A stretch of 64,000 bases of DNA from Planctomycetota bacterium (GTDB lineage: Bacteria; Planctomycetota; UBA8742; UBA2392), in contig QEVF01000019.1 of NCBI GenBank assembly GCA_003576915.1, positions 1 to 64,000 of the forward strand, in the 5' to 3' direction. The notes below the pieces were generated by a model, which was not told where the DNA came from, made no database searches, and saw nothing but the letters and a program-made list of their open reading frames with translations. Both the position numbers and the translations under genes were made by a program. Shown here one piece after another: positions 18,251 to 44,358 of the stretch. Numbering within the stretch: the stretch's first letter is position 1; each line of letters opens with the position of its first letter.

Positions 18251-18829
18251 CTACTTCTTGCGCTTGAGCGCGGTGAAGCTCTGGTTGTTGTAGTCGCCGC
18301 CCACAAACAGCAGATCGCCGTCGCCCTTGAGATCGCGGGCCAGCATCACGCTGAAGCTCTCCAGGTCGTCTTCGTTCTCGAGGATGATCACGTAGGGGTT
18401 GCCGCGGTAGTTCACCAGAATGAAGGCAAACGACTCGGCGCGCTCGCCCTGCTTCACGGCGAGTTCCCCCGAAGCATAGACCAGGGTGCAGGCGCGTTTT
18501 AGCTCATCAAGGCGTGCGTCGGCCTTCTTCTCGCCGGAGGCAAAGAACTTCTCGAGGAAGCGGGTCATGAGCGCGGTGTGCTTGTCGCTCTTCTTGAAGT
18601 CGAACGTGAGGACTTCGCCCTCGCGCGGCGCGCGCTGCGTGAGTCGTGTTGTCAGTTCGGCGTCCAGCTCCCAGGCACCCCAGATCTCGCTGGCGACAAC
18701 GTTCTCTTCGTCGGTCACGAAGTTGAGCTTGCCAGGCTCCCCGGGTTTGGGCGGGTCACCCGCGAAGATGATGCCCGCCCCCGCGGTGAGGGCCACCAGG
18801 CACAGCGCCGCAACGATACGTGTCAGCAT
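18251..18829 (-). CDS. secreted protein, tandem paralogue B
   Basis: 192 residues, signal peptide about 1-23. Shares with paralogue A the early VVASE/VVACE segment and the C-terminal block VMLARDLKGDGDLLFVGGD ending KRKK; the middle has diverged. Function unknown; the pair looks like a local duplication. The ATG is preceded on the minus strand by GAGGAG, and only 9 bp separate the gene from the O-methyltransferase stop codon, so all three leftward genes form one operon headed by the O-methyltransferase. Confidence 0.72.
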   Translation of the reverse strand: MLTRIVAALCLVALTAGAGIIFAGDPPKPGEPGKLNFVTDEENVVASEIWGAWELDAELTTRLTQRAPREGEVLTFDFKKSDKHTALMTRFLEKFFASGEKKADARLDELKRACTLVYASGELAVKQGERAESFAFILVNYRGNPYVIILENEDDLESFSVMLARDLKGDGDLLFVGGDYNNQSFTALKRKK

Positions 18830-18838
18830 GGAAACTCC

Positions 18839-19963
18839 TCAGGCCTTCACGGCCTCGATGATGTTGACGGGGCTTTGCGTGGCCATGACGCCGGCCAGTT
18901 TCAGCCCCGCCTGCTTGAAAAGGTCGGCAAACTGGCGTTCCGTGCGCTCGCAGCCGCCCGGAGTCATGGCCAGCATGTTCAGGTCCATCAGGTGCGACAT
19001 GTGGGGCCCCGGCTCCGCGGGCACCATCATTTCACAGACCAGCACCCGCCCCGCGGGCTGCATGGCGCCTGCAATGTTCGAGAGAATCTTTACGCAGCGC
19101 TCGTCGTCCCAGTCGTGGATGATGTGCTTGAGCAGATAGGCGTCCCCCCCCTCGGGGGCGAAATCAAAGAAGCTGCCGCTGACAATCTCCACGCGGTCCT
19201 TCACGGGCGCGAGATGCTCGCCCGCTCCCTTCACCACCTGCGGCAGGTCAAACAGCACGCCTTGGGCCGCCGGCGCGTGCTTCAGCACCGTGGCCAGCAG
19301 CAGGCCGTGGCCGCCGCCGACATCGACGATGCGCTGAAAACTCTTGAAGTCGTAGGCCTTCGCAATGGCGCTCCCCGTCATGCCCGTGAAGGAGGTCATG
19401 GCCGCGTTGAAGACCTGCCCCTCCTCGATATTCCTGGCGTAGTAAGTGAACAGGTCGGCGCCCAGAGTCTTCTCCGCCACAGACACGCCCTGCACGACGG
19501 CCTCGTCAAAGCGCCCCCAGGGAAGCCAGTGCGAGGGCGTGGTGATCATGACGGCCATGTCCCTCAAAGAGCCGGGTACGTCCTTGCGCAGAAGGTTGGA
19601 CAGGGGCGTGAGAGCGAACACGCCGGGCTTTGGCTCGGCGTAAACGCCCGCTGAAGTCAGGGCGCGCATCATGCGATGCAGGGTCTTCTGGTGGGCGCCC
19701 ACCGCCTTGGCCAGATCAATGTAATACAGCGGACCTCTGGCCAAGGCGTCCGACACGCCAAGCTTGGCCGCGGCCGAAATGGCGCGGCTGACCATGAAGC
19801 CCATAAGCTGGCCCATGAGCTGCACCTCAGGCGGGGGCTCGGCCTGGGGCCGTCGCGCCTTGACCATGGGGGTCTTGGGGCGGGCCTTGCGTGCAGTTTT
19901 CGCCGTCACGCGGCGTACGGGCTTGCGAGCCTGCCGCCGCTTCACGCTTCTCTTGCGTGCCAT
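18839..19963 (-). CDS. O-methyltransferase (COMT/acetylserotonin type) with basic N-terminal tail
   Basis: 374 residues. The first ~40 residues are almost only Lys, Arg, Ala and Pro. A dimerisation winged-helix domain follows (about 48-130), then the catalytic domain with SAM motif VDVGGGHG and the LKHIIHDWDDE segment holding the catalytic His of this family. It methylates a hydroxyl on an unidentified small aromatic compound. The tail resembles histone-H1/AlgP-like tails and is not part of the family; it might hold the enzyme on nucleic acid or a polyanion. GAGGTG precedes the ATG. First gene of an operon with two secreted paralogues. Confidence 0.85.
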   Translation of the reverse strand: MARKRSVKRRQARKPVRRVTAKTARKARPKTPMVKARRPQAEPPPEVQLMGQLMGFMVSRAISAAAKLGVSDALARGPLYYIDLAKAVGAHQKTLHRMMRALTSAGVYAEPKPGVFALTPLSNLLRKDVPGSLRDMAVMITTPSHWLPWGRFDEAVVQGVSVAEKTLGADLFTYYARNIEEGQVFNAAMTSFTGMTGSAIAKAYDFKSFQRIVDVGGGHGLLLATVLKHAPAAQGVLFDLPQVVKGAGEHLAPVKDRVEIVSGSFFDFAPEGGDAYLLKHIIHDWDDERCVKILSNIAGAMQPAGRVLVCEMMVPAEPGPHMSHLMDLNMLAMTPGGCERTERQFADLFKQAGLKLAGVMATQSPVNIIEAVKA

Positions 19964-20121
19964 GCATCACCTCGTTCAGGCAGGATAGGTTGCTTGCGGG
20001 GTGGAACATAGCCGCGCCTGCCAGGTTTTATTGCGGTGAAAATCTGTTTTCCGTGCAGGCTTCTACGGTGCGGGGGCTGTCGCCTCGCCGGTTAATCTCT
20101 GATCAAACCAGGGAGGAAGCC

Positions 20122-38532: not shown

Positions 38533-38596
38533 TATTTTCCCGCAGCAGACTTTGAAATCGGACGAATCCGAAGTGCCTCGGACCCCAGGAGCCCTC

Positions 38597-39001
38597 ATGC
38601 AACTGCCACCGCGCCTCAGACCTACCGAAGCTGCTACAATCCTTGAACCGCTGACTGTCGCTGCAAAGACCGCCAAGAAGAAGGCCGCCACGAAGAAGGT
38701 CACGGCCGTGAAGGTCAAGAAGGACGCCAAGACCGGCCTGACACTCATTGACGTTCGCATGCCCCAGGAAATCACCTCCGGTACCATCCCCGGTGCCCGG
38801 CAGATCCCCCTGGATAACATCCTTCAGACCGTGCCCAGCGAGATTCCTGATCCTGCCGCTCCCGTCGTGGTTTACTGCAAGAGCGGCATGCGCGGCGGCA
38901 TGGCCCAAGGCGCGCTGCGCAAGCTGGGCTACACAAACGTTTCGAACATCGTCGGCGGTTTTGACGCCTGGCAGAAGGCCGGCCTGCCCGTCATGCAGTA
39001 A
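38597..39001 (+). CDS. rhodanese-domain sulfurtransferase with lysine-rich N-terminal tail
   Basis: 134 residues. One rhodanese domain (about 45-134) with active-site Cys94 in VVYCKSGMRGG, preceded by LTLIDVRMPQE (substrate-side strand). Transfers sulfane sulfur to a thiol acceptor. The first ~40 residues include a lysine/alanine-rich stretch (AAKTAKKKAATKKVTAVKVKK), unusual for rhodaneses and reminiscent of histone H1 tails. ATG at 38597 with AGGAG six nt before; a longer TTG frame exists upstream. The last 60 bp lie in a 100-bp segment that recurs at 41540, giving a partial second copy of the C-terminus. Confidence 0.88.
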   Translation: MQLPPRLRPTEAATILEPLTVAAKTAKKKAATKKVTAVKVKKDAKTGLTLIDVRMPQEITSGTIPGARQIPLDNILQTVPSEIPDPAAPVVVYCKSGMRGGMAQGALRKLGYTNVSNIVGGFDAWQKAGLPVMQ

Positions 39002-39041
39002 CTCGGCAACTCAGCGCGGCGGGCGGCCCTGGCGGTCGCCG
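38942..39041 (+). repeat. 100-bp direct repeat, left copy
   Basis: Identical at every base to 41540-41639. Contains the last 60 bp of the rhodanese gene and the following 40 bp. The copies are 2,598 bp apart and bracket the lower-GC region. At the right edge the sequences diverge after GTCGCCG (T versus C). Confidence 0.95.
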
Positions 39042-39067
39042 TTCAGGCACGTAGCAAGTTGTCGCGA

Positions 39068-40666
39068 TTAGGGTTTCAGTTCACTTACATCTACGTAGAC
39101 CGTCTGGGCGGAACTCCAGTCGGTCAACTCGACTTCACGCGAAACAACCATACCGCCCGATTCCAACGTAACTGCGACAACATACTGCCTGCAAGGCAAC
39201 CCCCGGAGAACGTAAGTCTCTCCGTCGACGATCGGCGGTGGAACTACGACATAGCTGCTGAAGCGCTGACCCACTCCAACTCGATAACGTTGTCCAGACG
39301 ACATCCCGGTCAGGATGACTGTAATTTCGCCTTTTGCCCGGTGCAGAACCACATCTCCCAAGTCAGTATCTTCTCCTGATTTGATCTGCACAGAGACGCG
39401 GGAGAGCTCGAAACCCCACGCCTCCACGGACAACTCGATGTTCCCCGGTGGAAGCCCTGTCAAGTGGACGTTCCCTGTTTCATCGGAGACATTGCCTGCC
39501 CCAAGGCGCGGTTTCCCTTGACTGTAAGAAACTAACCTTGATCCAATTACGGCACAACCATTGGCTATTGGCTTCCCGCCCGGGTCTAGTATGCGGAGCT
39601 TCGCCCCCCCGGACGGTTTTAAGGCAACGACGATCTCGACCGTTTGTCCGGAGGGCACGGTAACCCATTCAGAACGCCCTGCAAGTGGTCCGGTGACGGA
39701 GACCCTGTAACTTTGGCCTGATCTCAGGCTGCCCGAATCCCAGCTTGACGTATACGCTTCACGCAAAGGGAAGGTGCTCGCAGCGCCAACCGCCGGCTCA
39801 AGAATTAGGGTGCAATCGCCTGGAACTTGTGTCTCGCCAAATGTGACGCGGAGCCCTCCTGCTTCGGGAGAGCGGAACGCCACCAATACGAGTTCCTGTC
39901 CCGAGACGATCTGTGCGGCATCAATACGGTGAATTGACTTGCTATAACCGGAACGCTTGCAGGCGAGAGTGAAAACGAGTGCCATCTCGGCGGGCACCTT
40001 CGGAATCTCGGCTGTCCCCTCTGTCGAAAGTGAAAAGCTCAGTGCAAAGCTGTAATTGCGGCTGACAGCAGCTTTGCCACGTGTCATTACCGCGTTAGCG
40101 GCCTCGCAGACTTCTCCCAATCCTGTAACCGGCACGCCGTCATCATACACGGCCCTGATTTTGACCGTCGCAGCCCTTTGGACCTTCAACTCAAGGGACT
40201 GGTCCATGGTGCAGATGGCCTCCACGGGCGCAGCGAACCAGTGATCGTCTATTACATCCACGCGGACACGAGAACCTTTTTCACAGGAAATGTCGCACGA
40301 CCCGTCTGCTCGTGTTGTCCGAGTCTTGACAACATCACCCATTCGCTTCTCAAGCAGTGAAAGACGAAAGCTCACTGTGACGTCCGATATCGCGTCGCCG
40401 CGGGAGTTCCTGCAACGCACCACAATGTTAATGACTGCCCGGGATGGAAGCGGTGTAGATGTTGATTCCCGCTCCCCGGCGAGAGGTTGTTCGATACTCT
40501 GCTTCCTGGACAAATTGCCGCTGGGTTCGCTTTCGATTTCGGTCGCCCCACCGGATTGTTGGGATGAATCATCGACACGAGGCGTGGAGTATCGGTGTGT
40601 AAGCCATCCCACGCTCAACAGCAGCGCAAGGACACACGGGAGCACAACTCTTGCTTTGTGACGCAT
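39068..40666 (-). CDS. secreted or membrane-anchored protein with carboxypeptidase-regulatory-like domains
   Basis: 532 residues. N-terminal hydrophobic helix (about 8-26), a Ser/Glu/Gln-rich linker, then repeated beta-sandwich segments typical of carboxypeptidase-regulatory-like (CarboxypepD_reg) domains, marked by phrases such as GEVCEAAN, PGGKPIANGCAVIGSR and GLPPGNIELSVEAWGF. No enzyme domain. Related in layout to the PDZ protein at 15314 but without the PDZ. Base composition is visibly lower in GC than flanking genes. The ATG at 40666 lies 20 bp after the stop of the next gene upstream; an in-frame GTG/ATG 12 codons earlier is possible. Confidence 0.62.
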   Translation of the reverse strand: MRHKARVVLPCVLALLLSVGWLTHRYSTPRVDDSSQQSGGATEIESEPSGNLSRKQSIEQPLAGERESTSTPLPSRAVINIVVRCRNSRGDAISDVTVSFRLSLLEKRMGDVVKTRTTRADGSCDISCEKGSRVRVDVIDDHWFAAPVEAICTMDQSLELKVQRAATVKIRAVYDDGVPVTGLGEVCEAANAVMTRGKAAVSRNYSFALSFSLSTEGTAEIPKVPAEMALVFTLACKRSGYSKSIHRIDAAQIVSGQELVLVAFRSPEAGGLRVTFGETQVPGDCTLILEPAVGAASTFPLREAYTSSWDSGSLRSGQSYRVSVTGPLAGRSEWVTVPSGQTVEIVVALKPSGGAKLRILDPGGKPIANGCAVIGSRLVSYSQGKPRLGAGNVSDETGNVHLTGLPPGNIELSVEAWGFELSRVSVQIKSGEDTDLGDVVLHRAKGEITVILTGMSSGQRYRVGVGQRFSSYVVVPPPIVDGETYVLRGLPCRQYVVAVTLESGGMVVSREVELTDWSSAQTVYVDVSELKP

Positions 40667-40686
40667 GCCGATGCCCCCCGCCGCTC

Positions 40687-41454
40687 CTATGGCAGCGTCC
40701 ACGATCCAACCGGGAACCCGAAAGAGTCAAACACAAGGAGCGTGCCATTCCACCCCGGCGTTGCAGGATTGGTGTGGAAAATCGTGGTGGACAGGCTGGC
40801 GTTCTGTTCGCCATTGTTGTGGATGTACTGCTTGCCTCGCGCATACATATAAAAGACCAAAATGCTCCCGGTGTACGCTTGGGAGCAGTAGCAGTTGACT
40901 GTCAATGGATTATCTTGACTACCAGACCAGGCTGTGGGGATGTACTTGTGGTCCAAGTAGCCCCCCGTGGGATAAGTAATCGGCGTTGAACCACCTCCAA
41001 CCGCTGCGTATGTACTTTGCGACGAACTACTAATGTTGTCGACTGCTGTTTGCATTTCAGTAAACGCGCTGAAATCCCCGCGAACTTCCGCAGTGCAGGT
41101 CGTTTCCGCACGAACATTTCCACCCGTTGATCTCTGACGCGACACGATTATCTTAGCGTTGATATCGCTGTGAAAGGCAGCATCGATAATCCACGTTGCG
41201 TTTGGGTCATCGATTGAGCCCTGAAAACGCTTATCGGCCCAAGTCGTCACCCAGTTATTGTAGGTGACCCCGCTTTGTGCATTTCCTAGACTTCCACTCC
41301 CCAGAACCCAGACGTAGCCGCTATGTCCAGTGATGCCTCCAATAGCAGGTGACAGCCAGCCACTCGACACAGTTCCGGATTGGCTTGCTGAAACCGAAGT
41401 AACAGCGACGAACATCAGAGCTAGAAATCCCAATGACTTGAAAATTTTAACCAT
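40687..41454 (-). CDS. secreted protein of unknown function in lower-GC insertion
   Basis: 255 residues: signal peptide (about 1-23, SVSASQ), then a Ser/Thr/Asn/Gly-rich beta-type sequence with many aromatics (WVLGSGSLG, YMYARGKQYIH, HTNPATPGWNGTLLVFDSFGFPVGSW) and two cysteine-containing spots. No family recognised; the composition fits an extracellular protein. AGGAG five nt before the ATG. Upstream on the same strand TATAGT and a T-rich stretch (41490-41500) may hold its promoter. It precedes the 532-residue gene in one operon. Low-GC composition suggests horizontal acquisition. Confidence 0.62.
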   Translation of the reverse strand: MVKIFKSLGFLALMFVAVTSVSASQSGTVSSGWLSPAIGGITGHSGYVWVLGSGSLGNAQSGVTYNNWVTTWADKRFQGSIDDPNATWIIDAAFHSDINAKIIVSRQRSTGGNVRAETTCTAEVRGDFSAFTEMQTAVDNISSSSQSTYAAVGGGSTPITYPTGGYLDHKYIPTAWSGSQDNPLTVNCYCSQAYTGSILVFYMYARGKQYIHNNGEQNASLSTTIFHTNPATPGWNGTLLVFDSFGFPVGSWTLP

Positions 41455-41539
41455 AACCGCTCCTATATGCTATCATGAAGCAAAACTATAACCTGGTCTA
41501 GCGATTTTGAAGTGCGGCGTCAAATAGGAAATTGATACG

Positions 41540-41639
41540 TCGAACATCGTCGGCGGTTTTGACGCCTGGCAGAAGGCCGGCCTGCCCGTCATGCAGTAAC
41601 TCGGCAACTCAGCGCGGCGGGCGGCCCTGGCGGTCGCCG
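41540..41639 (+). repeat. 100-bp direct repeat, right copy
   Basis: Exact copy of 38942-39041. It carries a fragment coding the last 19 residues of the rhodanese (SNIVGGFDAWQKAGLPVMQ) plus a stop, and runs into the hydrolase N-terminus. The left-hand junction differs by two bases in an otherwise shared ACGT(TT)CGAAC context. Confidence 0.95.
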
Positions 41640-41692
41640 CCGAAAGCGTCAGTGTCCTTTACTGCCCCGGGCTTGACGGCAATGCCAGAGAG

Positions 41693-42358
41693 ATGGAGCC
41701 CGTGGTCGAGCTCTTGCCGGACCACGTCAGGGTTGAGCCCTTCTATTACCCCACCCTGCCCCGGGTTTCGTTTGAGGAACTCGCCCGGCTCATTGCCATT
41801 CGCCTTCAGGAGCGCCCCGGTGGCCGGCGCTTGCTGGCCGGTTGCTCCTTTGGCGGTGCCGTGGCGCAGATGGTTGCCCTGCTCCAGCCCGGCTGCCTCG
41901 ACGGGCTGTTTCTCGTTGTCACGTTCAACCACGAGGCCGAGGCCTTCGCGTCGATGCTGGGTCGCGCGGCCGTGAAAGTGCTTCCCGATTTTGTGCTGCG
42001 CCCCGTTACGCGGGCGTTGGCGCGCTGGAAGCTCGCGGGGGGGCTGGACGAGGAGTCCAACGAGCGTTTTCTCAAGAGCATCACCAGCGTGGACCCCAGG
42101 CTTCTGGCCGCGCGCCTGGCGATGCTCAAGGGTTTCGATGTGCGGGCCAGGCTGGGGGAGATCAAGATTCCGGTGGATGTGGTCTACTCGAGTGACGATC
42201 CCATCAGTGCGAGTCCTGCCCAGCTTGAAGGGTGGAAACGGTTGCCCGAGGGGCGCGTCAGCGGGGTCAAAGGCGGGCACGTGGCCCAGCGCCAGGCGCC
42301 CGAGGACATCGCCCGCCTGCTCTTGGCCTGGATCGAACGGGTGACGGGGGCGAAATGA
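41693..42358 (+). CDS. alpha/beta hydrolase, first gene of hyuAB operon
   Basis: 221 residues from the first ATG, but the open frame runs back to 41600 and the residues SVSVLYCPGLDGNAREM before it look like a genuine first strand, so the start (non-ATG, possibly the CTG at 41627) is upstream and partly inside the repeat copy. The nucleophile elbow is GCSFGG; a candidate catalytic His is in KGGHVAQRQAPED. Its TGA overlaps the ATG of hyuA (ATGA), so the two are translationally coupled. Probably hydrolyses an amide or ester linked to the hydantoinase/oxoprolinase substrate. Confidence 0.72.
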   Translation: MEPVVELLPDHVRVEPFYYPTLPRVSFEELARLIAIRLQERPGGRRLLAGCSFGGAVAQMVALLQPGCLDGLFLVVTFNHEAEAFASMLGRAAVKVLPDFVLRPVTRALARWKLAGGLDEESNERFLKSITSVDPRLLAARLAMLKGFDVRARLGEIKIPVDVVYSSDDPISASPAQLEGWKRLPEGRVSGVKGGHVAQRQAPEDIARLLLAWIERVTGAK

Positions 42359-44358
42359 CAGCCATGCCCATCATCGCGGCCATTGATACCGGCGGCACCT
42401 TCACCGATGCCGTGCGCTTTGACGGCCGCAGCCTGACCCGCGCCAAGGTTCCCACCACGCCCGAAGACCCCAGCCGCGGCGTGGCCCAGGCGCTGGCGCA
42501 ACTGGGCGGCGCCGACTTGCTCATTCACGGCACGACCACCGCCACCAATGCGCTGCTTGAGGGCAGGCTGGCCCCCATTGCCTTCATCACCACGCGCGGC
42601 ATGGGCGACGTGCTGGCCATTGGCCGCCAGAACCGCGACCCGCGCGACCTTTACGCTCTGGCCCCGCGCCAGAGAAACGAACTGGTGCCGCGCTCGCATC
42701 GCCTGGAAGTGGGCGAGCGGCTGGGGCCTCAGGGCCAAGTTGAGCTTGCATTGACCGCCGGTGAAATCGAAGCCGCACGCCAGGCCGTGGCCGCGCTGAA
42801 GCCACAGGCCGTGGCTGTCTGCCTGCTGCACTCTTATGCGAACCCTGCCCACGAGCGTGCGCTGGCCGACGGCTTGCGCGAGCTTGGCATCCCCGTCGTG
42901 CTCTCCAGCGAGCTTGCACCGGAGTTCCGCGAGTACGAGCGTTCGCTGGTCACGGCGGCCAACGCGGGCCTGATACCGCTGCTGCGCACCTACATCGCCG
43001 CGTTGGAGCAACGGGTGGCGCCGTCGCGCGTGGTGATCATGCACAGCGCCGGCGGCTGGCTTCCCGCCGAGATTGCGGCCCGAGAACCCGTGAAGCTGGC
43101 GCTCAGCGGACCGGCCGGCGGCATTGCCGGGGTGCGCGCCGTGCTGGACGCCGAGGGTTACGAGAGCGGCCTGGCCTTTGACGTGGGCGGAACGAGCACG
43201 GACGTGTCGCTCGTGACACAGAAGACGCGCCTGCGCCCTGTCACCGAGGTCGCGGGCCTGCCGTTGCGCACGCCCTCGCTGGACATTCACACCATCGGCG
43301 CGGGGGGAGGCTCGCTGGCCTGGCTGGATGCAGCCGGTGCTCTACAGGTTGGGCCGCAGAGCGCAGGCGCCACGCCGGGCCCGGCCTGCTACGGGCGCGG
43401 CGGCACCGCAGCGACCCTGACCGACGCGCTAGTCGTGCTCGGGCGGCTGCCGGGATCTCTCAAGCTGGGCGGATCTCTGGAGTTGAAGCACGACCTCGCA
43501 CAGCGGGCCTGCGCTGAACTGCGGATGGACCCCGCAGGCAGAGGCCGGGAGATCCGCGCCACCGCGGCCGCCATCGTGCGTGTCGCCCTGGCCGGCATCG
43601 AACGCGCCCTGCGCCGCGTAACCGTCGAGCGCGGCGTGGACCCGCGCCGCCTGCCTCTCGTTCCCTTCGGCGGCGCCGGATCGCTGTTGGCCTGCGAGCT
43701 GGCCGAGTTGTTGGATATGAGGACGATTCTCGTGCCCCGCGACCCCGGCCTGCTGTGTGCCCTGGGCATGCTGAAGACCCCCGCCTCGCGCGACTTTGCG
43801 CGGACCCTTCTGCTCAACGGGGCTGACCGGCGCTGTCTGTCAAAGGCCCGGCGCGCGGCCCGTGAACTCAAGGTGCGCGGCAGGAAGGAGTTGCGCGCCT
43901 GCCGGCTTCAGGGACCCTTTCGGAGCGCGGCTTCTCTGGATGTCCGCTACCTGGGCCAGAGCTTTGAACTGAACGTTCCCCTGATGGCGGACTGGCGGCG
44001 CCGGTTTGATGAAGCGCATCGGCGCGAGTTCGGCGACGCCTACGGCGCGCGCGGCGCCGAGATTGTCAACGTGCGTGTTCGCGTCTGGGCCGAGCATCCG
44101 ATTCGCATTCCCGCGCCGAAGCTGCCGCGGGCAAAGCCGCGGGCCGCGATGTGGGGCGGCGTGCCGGTGTTTGAGCGCGACGCCCTGCCGCCGGGCTTCA
44201 GTCTGAGCGGCCCCGCCATCGTGACCGAGTTGTCGAGCTGCCTGTGGCTGGCCGAAGGCTGGAAGCTGGAAGTGAAGAAGAGCGGCGCGTTGATGTTGAC
44301 GCGGCAGGCAGGTCCGCGCCAAAGGCTGGGGTCGGATTCGGGGTCGGGGTTGAATTGA
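42355..44358 (+). CDS. hyuA: hydantoinase/5-oxoprolinase subunit A
   Basis: 667 residues: Hydant_A_N then Hydantoinase_A domain. The N-terminal IAAIDTGGTFTDAV is the ATP-phosphate loop of this ASKHA-fold family; DVGGTSTDVSLV repeats it in the second lobe near residue 280. Together with HyuB it opens cyclic amides (5-oxoproline or N-substituted hydantoin) with ATP. The substrate cannot be read from the sequence. ATG overlaps the hydrolase stop; hyuB starts 13 bp after its own stop. The C-terminal part ends in a less conserved, low-complexity stretch. Confidence 0.88.
   Translation: MTAMPIIAAIDTGGTFTDAVRFDGRSLTRAKVPTTPEDPSRGVAQALAQLGGADLLIHGTTTATNALLEGRLAPIAFITTRGMGDVLAIGRQNRDPRDLYALAPRQRNELVPRSHRLEVGERLGPQGQVELALTAGEIEAARQAVAALKPQAVAVCLLHSYANPAHERALADGLRELGIPVVLSSELAPEFREYERSLVTAANAGLIPLLRTYIAALEQRVAPSRVVIMHSAGGWLPAEIAAREPVKLALSGPAGGIAGVRAVLDAEGYESGLAFDVGGTSTDVSLVTQKTRLRPVTEVAGLPLRTPSLDIHTIGAGGGSLAWLDAAGALQVGPQSAGATPGPACYGRGGTAATLTDALVVLGRLPGSLKLGGSLELKHDLAQRACAELRMDPAGRGREIRATAAAIVRVALAGIERALRRVTVERGVDPRRLPLVPFGGAGSLLACELAELLDMRTILVPRDPGLLCALGMLKTPASRDFARTLLLNGADRRCLSKARRAARELKVRGRKELRACRLQGPFRSAASLDVRYLGQSFELNVPLMADWRRRFDEAHRREFGDAYGARGAEIVNVRVRVWAEHPIRIPAPKLPRAKPRAAMWGGVPVFERDALPPGFSLSGPAIVTELSSCLWLAEGWKLEVKKSGALMLTRQAGPRQRLGSDSGSGLN

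Follow-up and report, generated by a model that had tools for sequence, protein, structure and literature searches.

How did a two-gene operon come to lie directly behind a rhodanese gene, between two exact copies of the same 100 bp? The window, by which we mean the whole 64-kb stretch of DNA that was analysed, belongs to a draft assembly of 59 contigs, here called G000. An earlier note on this sequence had read the region as an insertion, and its description of the site was borne out. Self-comparison of the window confirmed that the direct repeat is identical over its 100 bp, with 2598 bp from start to start, and no other direct repeat of at least 32 bp at 85% identity or more was found within the window. 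The left copy does end an intact rhodanese gene, whose ATG start is placed as in the relative G001 (a longer frame opens at 38552) and whose terminator hairpin is also seen in G001 and G002. The right copy is, as claimed, a rhodanese tail cut off from its gene; it precedes an alpha/beta hydrolase gene, which additionally lacks its start codon. The features are collected in the table.

Features of the insertion site in the window (positions are those of the whole stretch)
Feature	Position	Strand	Evidence
Rhodanese gene, intact, insertion target	38597..39001	+	Pfam Rhodanese 1.6e-19; orthologue at the G001 empty site
Left copy of the target duplication	38942..39041	+	Exact repeat; last 60 bp of the rhodanese gene and most of the terminator hairpin
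Inserted DNA, GC 54.4%	39042..41539	.	Missing between rhodanese and hydrolase in six relatives; GC
Gene B: membrane anchor, linker and chain of beta-sandwich domains (predicted)	39068..40702	-	Pfam CarboxypepD_reg 3.2e-10; AlphaFold2 model; fold matches
Gene A: predicted secreted beta-rich protein, no known family	40687..41454	-	No Pfam, NCBIfam or PHROG match; model pLDDT 81
A-B operon leader and presumed promoter region, without homopolymer tract	41455..41539	-	Sequence
Right copy of the target duplication, the severed rhodanese tail	41540..41639	+	Exact repeat
Alpha/beta hydrolase gene, start codon missing in G000	41640..42358	+	41 bp absent relative to G002; first remaining ATG 41693
hyuA, next in the conserved order, context	42352..44358	+	Pfam Hydantoinase_A 4.7e-76; order conserved in the family

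The 2498 bp between the copies are of foreign composition. The two leftward genes were rightly described as being of lower GC: the insert has a GC content of 54.4% against 64.6% for the window, and a comparison of codon usage, proposed at the time, gave GC3 values of 0.56–0.58 for genes A and B and of 0.74–0.89 for the neighbouring genes. No Rfam element or tRNA was found at the insertion site.

Both genes are predicted to encode cell-surface proteins. Protein A has a signal-like N-terminus and a beta-rich model; no match to it was found in Pfam, NCBIfam or PHROGs, and its only fold matches, lectin- or GH12-like, were insignificant and were rejected. Protein B, whose ATG start is probably at 40666, is predicted to be a membrane-anchored stalk of Ig/CarboxypepD-like domains. 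Its transmembrane helix is joined by a disordered linker to beta-sandwich domains arranged in a chain (AlphaFold2 model, pLDDT 83). The CarboxypepD_reg domain occurs in 26 of 30 members of the B family, and the best fold matches of B include Gram-positive pilins and adhesin stalks, with low whole-chain TM-scores. By Pfam the cargo comprises A and B, with no restriction-modification domain. The plasmid or phage relatives that the earlier note had proposed to look for did not appear among plasmids (B), phages (A) or the viral contigs of IMG/VR (both), and PHROGs and NCBIfam gave none either; phage or plasmid cargo was therefore rejected.

In six relatives (G001, G010, G003, G012, G008 and G005) the site is empty. 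The rhodanese and hydrolase genes are directly adjacent there, 79–114 bp apart with a hairpin-like stretch between them, which supports both the insertion reading and the proposed natural order rhodanese-hydrolase-hyuA. The order mdh-rhodanese-hydrolase-hyuA is conserved in the family genomes in which the locus was read. In four further relatives (G009, G013, G014 and G007; loci L012, L013, L015 and L019) the gap between rhodanese and hydrolase is filled by a metallo-beta-lactamase-like gene, in some together with a TetR-like gene (both named by eye), and this unit has no long flanking repeats. The gap therefore takes insertions repeatedly.

The same insertion is carried by G002, another species of the same genus (a Planctomycetota MAG, contig JABARW010000078). 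Its two repeat copies differ from each other at two positions (∼98% alike), and relative to G000 it has four extra bases (CGCT) after the left copy and 41 extra bases (including ATGGCCGAAAGC) after the right copy. In G000 both copies end at one point, after GTCGCC, and the 41 bp missing on the right include the hydrolase start codon. The two gaps in G000 could reflect gene conversion between the copies, a real double deletion or a local assembly error. When G000 was aligned with G002 (L176), identity was ∼99% over a tract that is centred on the insertion (34.4–42.5 kb) and fell to 81–94% beyond it on the right and 87–95% immediately on the left. This pattern suggests that the insertion-bearing block was probably exchanged later between the two lineages by homologous recombination. 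A further 99% tract lies at 27.7–30 kb.

The A-B operon is a recurrent unit. Sixty-two B loci were examined across 16 genomes of the Planctomycetota family; apart from the window and its G002 counterpart, they were selected by homology to B and not by repeats. Most have an A-like gene upstream. Outside this one family, no match to B was found at 1e-40 in a draw of 294 genomes of the phylum. No closely matching donor was found. Eleven of the 62 loci are bracketed by direct repeats of their own, 27–243 bp long, which amount to ten independent events: the window (100 bp) together with L009 (107/108 bp, the same event), L051 (243 bp), L166 (197 bp), L066 (93 bp), L058 (54 bp), L080 (51 bp), L073 (49 bp), L077 (44 bp), L070 (31 bp) and L078 (27 bp). 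The inserts match the extent of the operon closely, at 2.0–3.5 kb; random fragments would not obviously do so, a point against the illegitimate insertion proposed below. At a threshold of E ≤ 1e-9, flanking repeats were seen at 10 of the 62 B loci, compared with 19 of 1000 random placements in ∼1.1 Mb of control sequence, and the random matches cluster at a few places that include tandem paralogues and one true insertion with other cargo. L068, with a 141-bp terminal overlap, and L173, with a 77% repeat, were left out of this comparison and of the count of target duplications. The remaining 51 loci have no clear flanking repeat, perhaps because long duplication is just one route among several or because old repeats have decayed.

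Empty counterparts with a single copy of the repeat were found for four sites: that of the window, those of L051 and L066, which are uninterrupted in G000, and that of L166, which is empty in G010. Each A-B insertion site has a repeat of different sequence, drawn from the local host DNA. The two L066 copies have GGAGC and a shorter spacer in common, changes that the empty site in G000 lacks; the copies therefore arose by duplication within the host lineage and diverged afterwards. Nearly all repeats derive from the 3′ terminus of a host gene. Read by eye, nine of the ten independent ones contain a stop codon belonging to an adjacent gene, and the remaining one is a terminator that directly follows such a codon. 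The repeats of L051 and L073, also read by eye, each cover the ends of two convergent genes and so leave both genes intact. The orientation of A-B relative to the target gene is mixed. The gene-end pattern looks like selection for harmless insertions, acting on a process with little sequence preference.

In the inserts read there was no mobility gene, transposase or integrase, in agreement with the earlier observation that the window insert lacks an integrase, and the inserts share neither terminal inverted repeats nor an end motif. An insertion sequence or transposon was rejected, since there are no terminal inverted repeats and the duplications are long and variable rather than short and constant; the earlier note had likewise held that 100 bp is too long for an IS target duplication. 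The same geometry occurs with other cargo. A 203-bp repeat (97.5%) from the end of an ATPase-like gene flanks G000:C14:206726-210920 (L124), and a 93-bp repeat (90%) from the end of an acyl-CoA-synthetase-like gene flanks G014:C1:1172595-1173526 (L137). The window and its relatives thus match the pattern described as insertion with long target duplication.

We consider it likely that the self-contained A-B operon was acquired horizontally and entered the site behind the rhodanese gene in an illegitimate event, in which ∼100 bp of the target were duplicated. Two staggered joints would be made in the target: one would coincide with a stop codon or terminator or lie directly beyond it, and the other would lie 27–243 bp away. 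The incoming DNA would bridge them, either because replication switches template onto the incoming DNA and then back upstream, or by fill-in of two spaced nicks. We infer such a step, by template switching or by spaced-nick fill-in, as the preferred reading. The duplication would keep the target gene whole, so the insertion would survive selection, and recombination between the repeats could excise the operon without a scar. Many of the sister copies probably encode phase-variable surface proteins, a property that would promote their repeated acquisition and loss. Every genome of the family has ComEC, so uptake of DNA would be possible. Ku was absent from 10 of the 11 family genomes tested, among them the repeat-bearing G000, G002, G003, G007 and G008 (G014 stood outside this set); Ku-dependent end joining was rejected because these five genomes lack it.

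The earlier note had suggested that either gene conversion or the integration, by a single crossover, of a circle equipped with the same 100 bp would fit. A circle with A-B and a copy of the rhodanese end would yield flanking direct repeats of whatever length, ComEC is found throughout the family, and the A-B unit of L068 sits on a circle-like contig. That contig (G012:C63, 5441 bp) has an exact 141-bp terminal overlap, which may mean a circle or a tandem array, and besides A and B contains a transporter-like gene and a transposase-like gene with inverted repeats. However, for each of the ten sites the circle would have had to pick up the end of another host gene, since the repeat differs from site to site and is local sequence; several repeats (27–54 bp) are short for homologous recombination; and the changes shared by the L066 copies, absent from the empty site, place the duplication in the host lineage. 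We therefore regard such a pre-equipped circle as quite unlikely, although a circle could account for spread where the site stays the same. Alternatively, A-B might be recognized by a specific enzyme, provided in trans, that inserts it at gene ends by long staggered cuts. The recurrence within one gene family, the close fit of the inserts to the operon and the gene-end targets agree with this, and 15 of the 16 genomes carry a retron-like reverse transcriptase gene, mostly as a single copy (at L124 it occupies 18585–19964, with counterparts that are usually single-copy across the family). Yet no terminal motif or inverted repeats were found, the repeats range in length from 27 to 243 bp, the pattern is shared by unrelated cargo, and G002 has three such insertions with no match to the reverse transcriptase. 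Such a dedicated enzyme seems rather improbable to us. With some doubt, but a little more readily, we can entertain the A-B operons as a dedicated and undescribed class of mobile cassette: transposase-less, phase-variable surface operons that would move within one Planctomycetota family by a specific process directed to gene ends, with 27–243-bp duplications that leave the neighbours intact and permit loss without a scar.

Tyrosine-integrase genomic islands also integrate at the 3′ ends of genes, duplicating the gene end and restoring the target gene, as happens here. The A-B inserts differ in lacking an integrase and a constant att core and in using many different targets. That they are islands which used gene 3′ ends as att sites and have since lost the integrase is highly improbable, given that the inserts read contain no integrase, the repeats have no common core and each insert is the size of a single operon. 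The earlier note had also insisted that an assembly misjoin at the 100-bp overlap be excluded. In a draft assembly, the exact identity of the copies and their odd coincident ends in G000 would fit a misjoin. A misjoin is very unlikely, since G002, a different species, shows this arrangement and both joints on a contig of its own, with repeat copies that have diverged from each other and with other bases at both edges; the shared geometry of nine other sites leaves it barely credible.

Insertion with long target duplication has been described by Nobusato et al. (2000, Gene 259:99) and Furuta et al. (2010, NAR 38:2428), mainly for restriction-modification genes of Helicobacter pylori; it was reported 25 years ago, and its mechanism is given as unsettled in the accounts that cite it (PMC1643837, PMC3154945). 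According to these accounts, the H. pylori insertions, like those found here, place cargo without mobility genes between long direct copies of the local target, and a relative has the empty site with one copy. The cargo differs, being mainly restriction-modification genes in H. pylori and here a surface-protein operon family of Planctomycetota, in ten independent events at gene 3′ ends. Transposed genes of Arabidopsis, which moved without a transposon, likewise have flanking repeats, of more than 15–30 bp, often single at the orthologous empty site; Arabidopsis is a eukaryote, however, and some of its repeats are also found at the parental site, suggesting circles (PMC2869330). The insertion type is thus already known; the novelty lies in its cargo and host lineage, in its recurrence and in the association with promoter tracts. 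With no fewer than ten events within a single gene family, besides other cargo and empty sites, the mechanism becomes testable. These events also suggest a route by which a group of free-living bacteria acquires exchangeable surface proteins in the absence of transposons.

Homopolymers of at least 8 nt (8–26 nt) lie upstream of A at 23 of the 62 loci (e.g. L170, L048, L061 with G15, L063 and L087), 15 of them among the first 42 loci and 8 among the later 20. Their density in the first set was 0.19 per kb, compared with 0.011–0.013 per kb elsewhere (the control sequence was that used for the repeats). The tracts mostly lie between −35-like and −10-like hexamers, as in TTGACA-aatt-G17-a-TATACT at L170. 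These hexamers matched the −35/−10 consensus with a mean of 7.9 of 12, against 6.07 of 12 for random positions in the same regions, and none of 5000 resamplings scored as high. In one orthologous pair, L048 and L049, the tracts are G9 and G6 in the consensus of draft assemblies. The contigs of L081 and L169 start inside a homopolymer tract.

Homopolymer tracts are known to cause promoter phase variation, for example in opc of Neisseria. As there, a poly-G or poly-A/T tract lies between −35-like and −10-like hexamers upstream of a surface-protein operon; unlike there, the A-B tracts are predicted from sequence and the window copy has none. Judged by their arrangement, the tract-bearing A-B loci probably have phase-variable promoters that would switch the operon on and off. 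No tract lies upstream of A in the window itself, so phase variation of that copy is unsupported. A literature search turned up no account of phase variation at homopolymeric tracts in Planctomycetes, and the present data predict promoter phase variation in Planctomycetota. Homopolymer tracts also lie immediately upstream of other predicted secreted proteins, at L105 1312 (545 aa) and G000:C33:53264 (L128; 352 aa), so tracts of this kind in promoters may extend beyond A-B.
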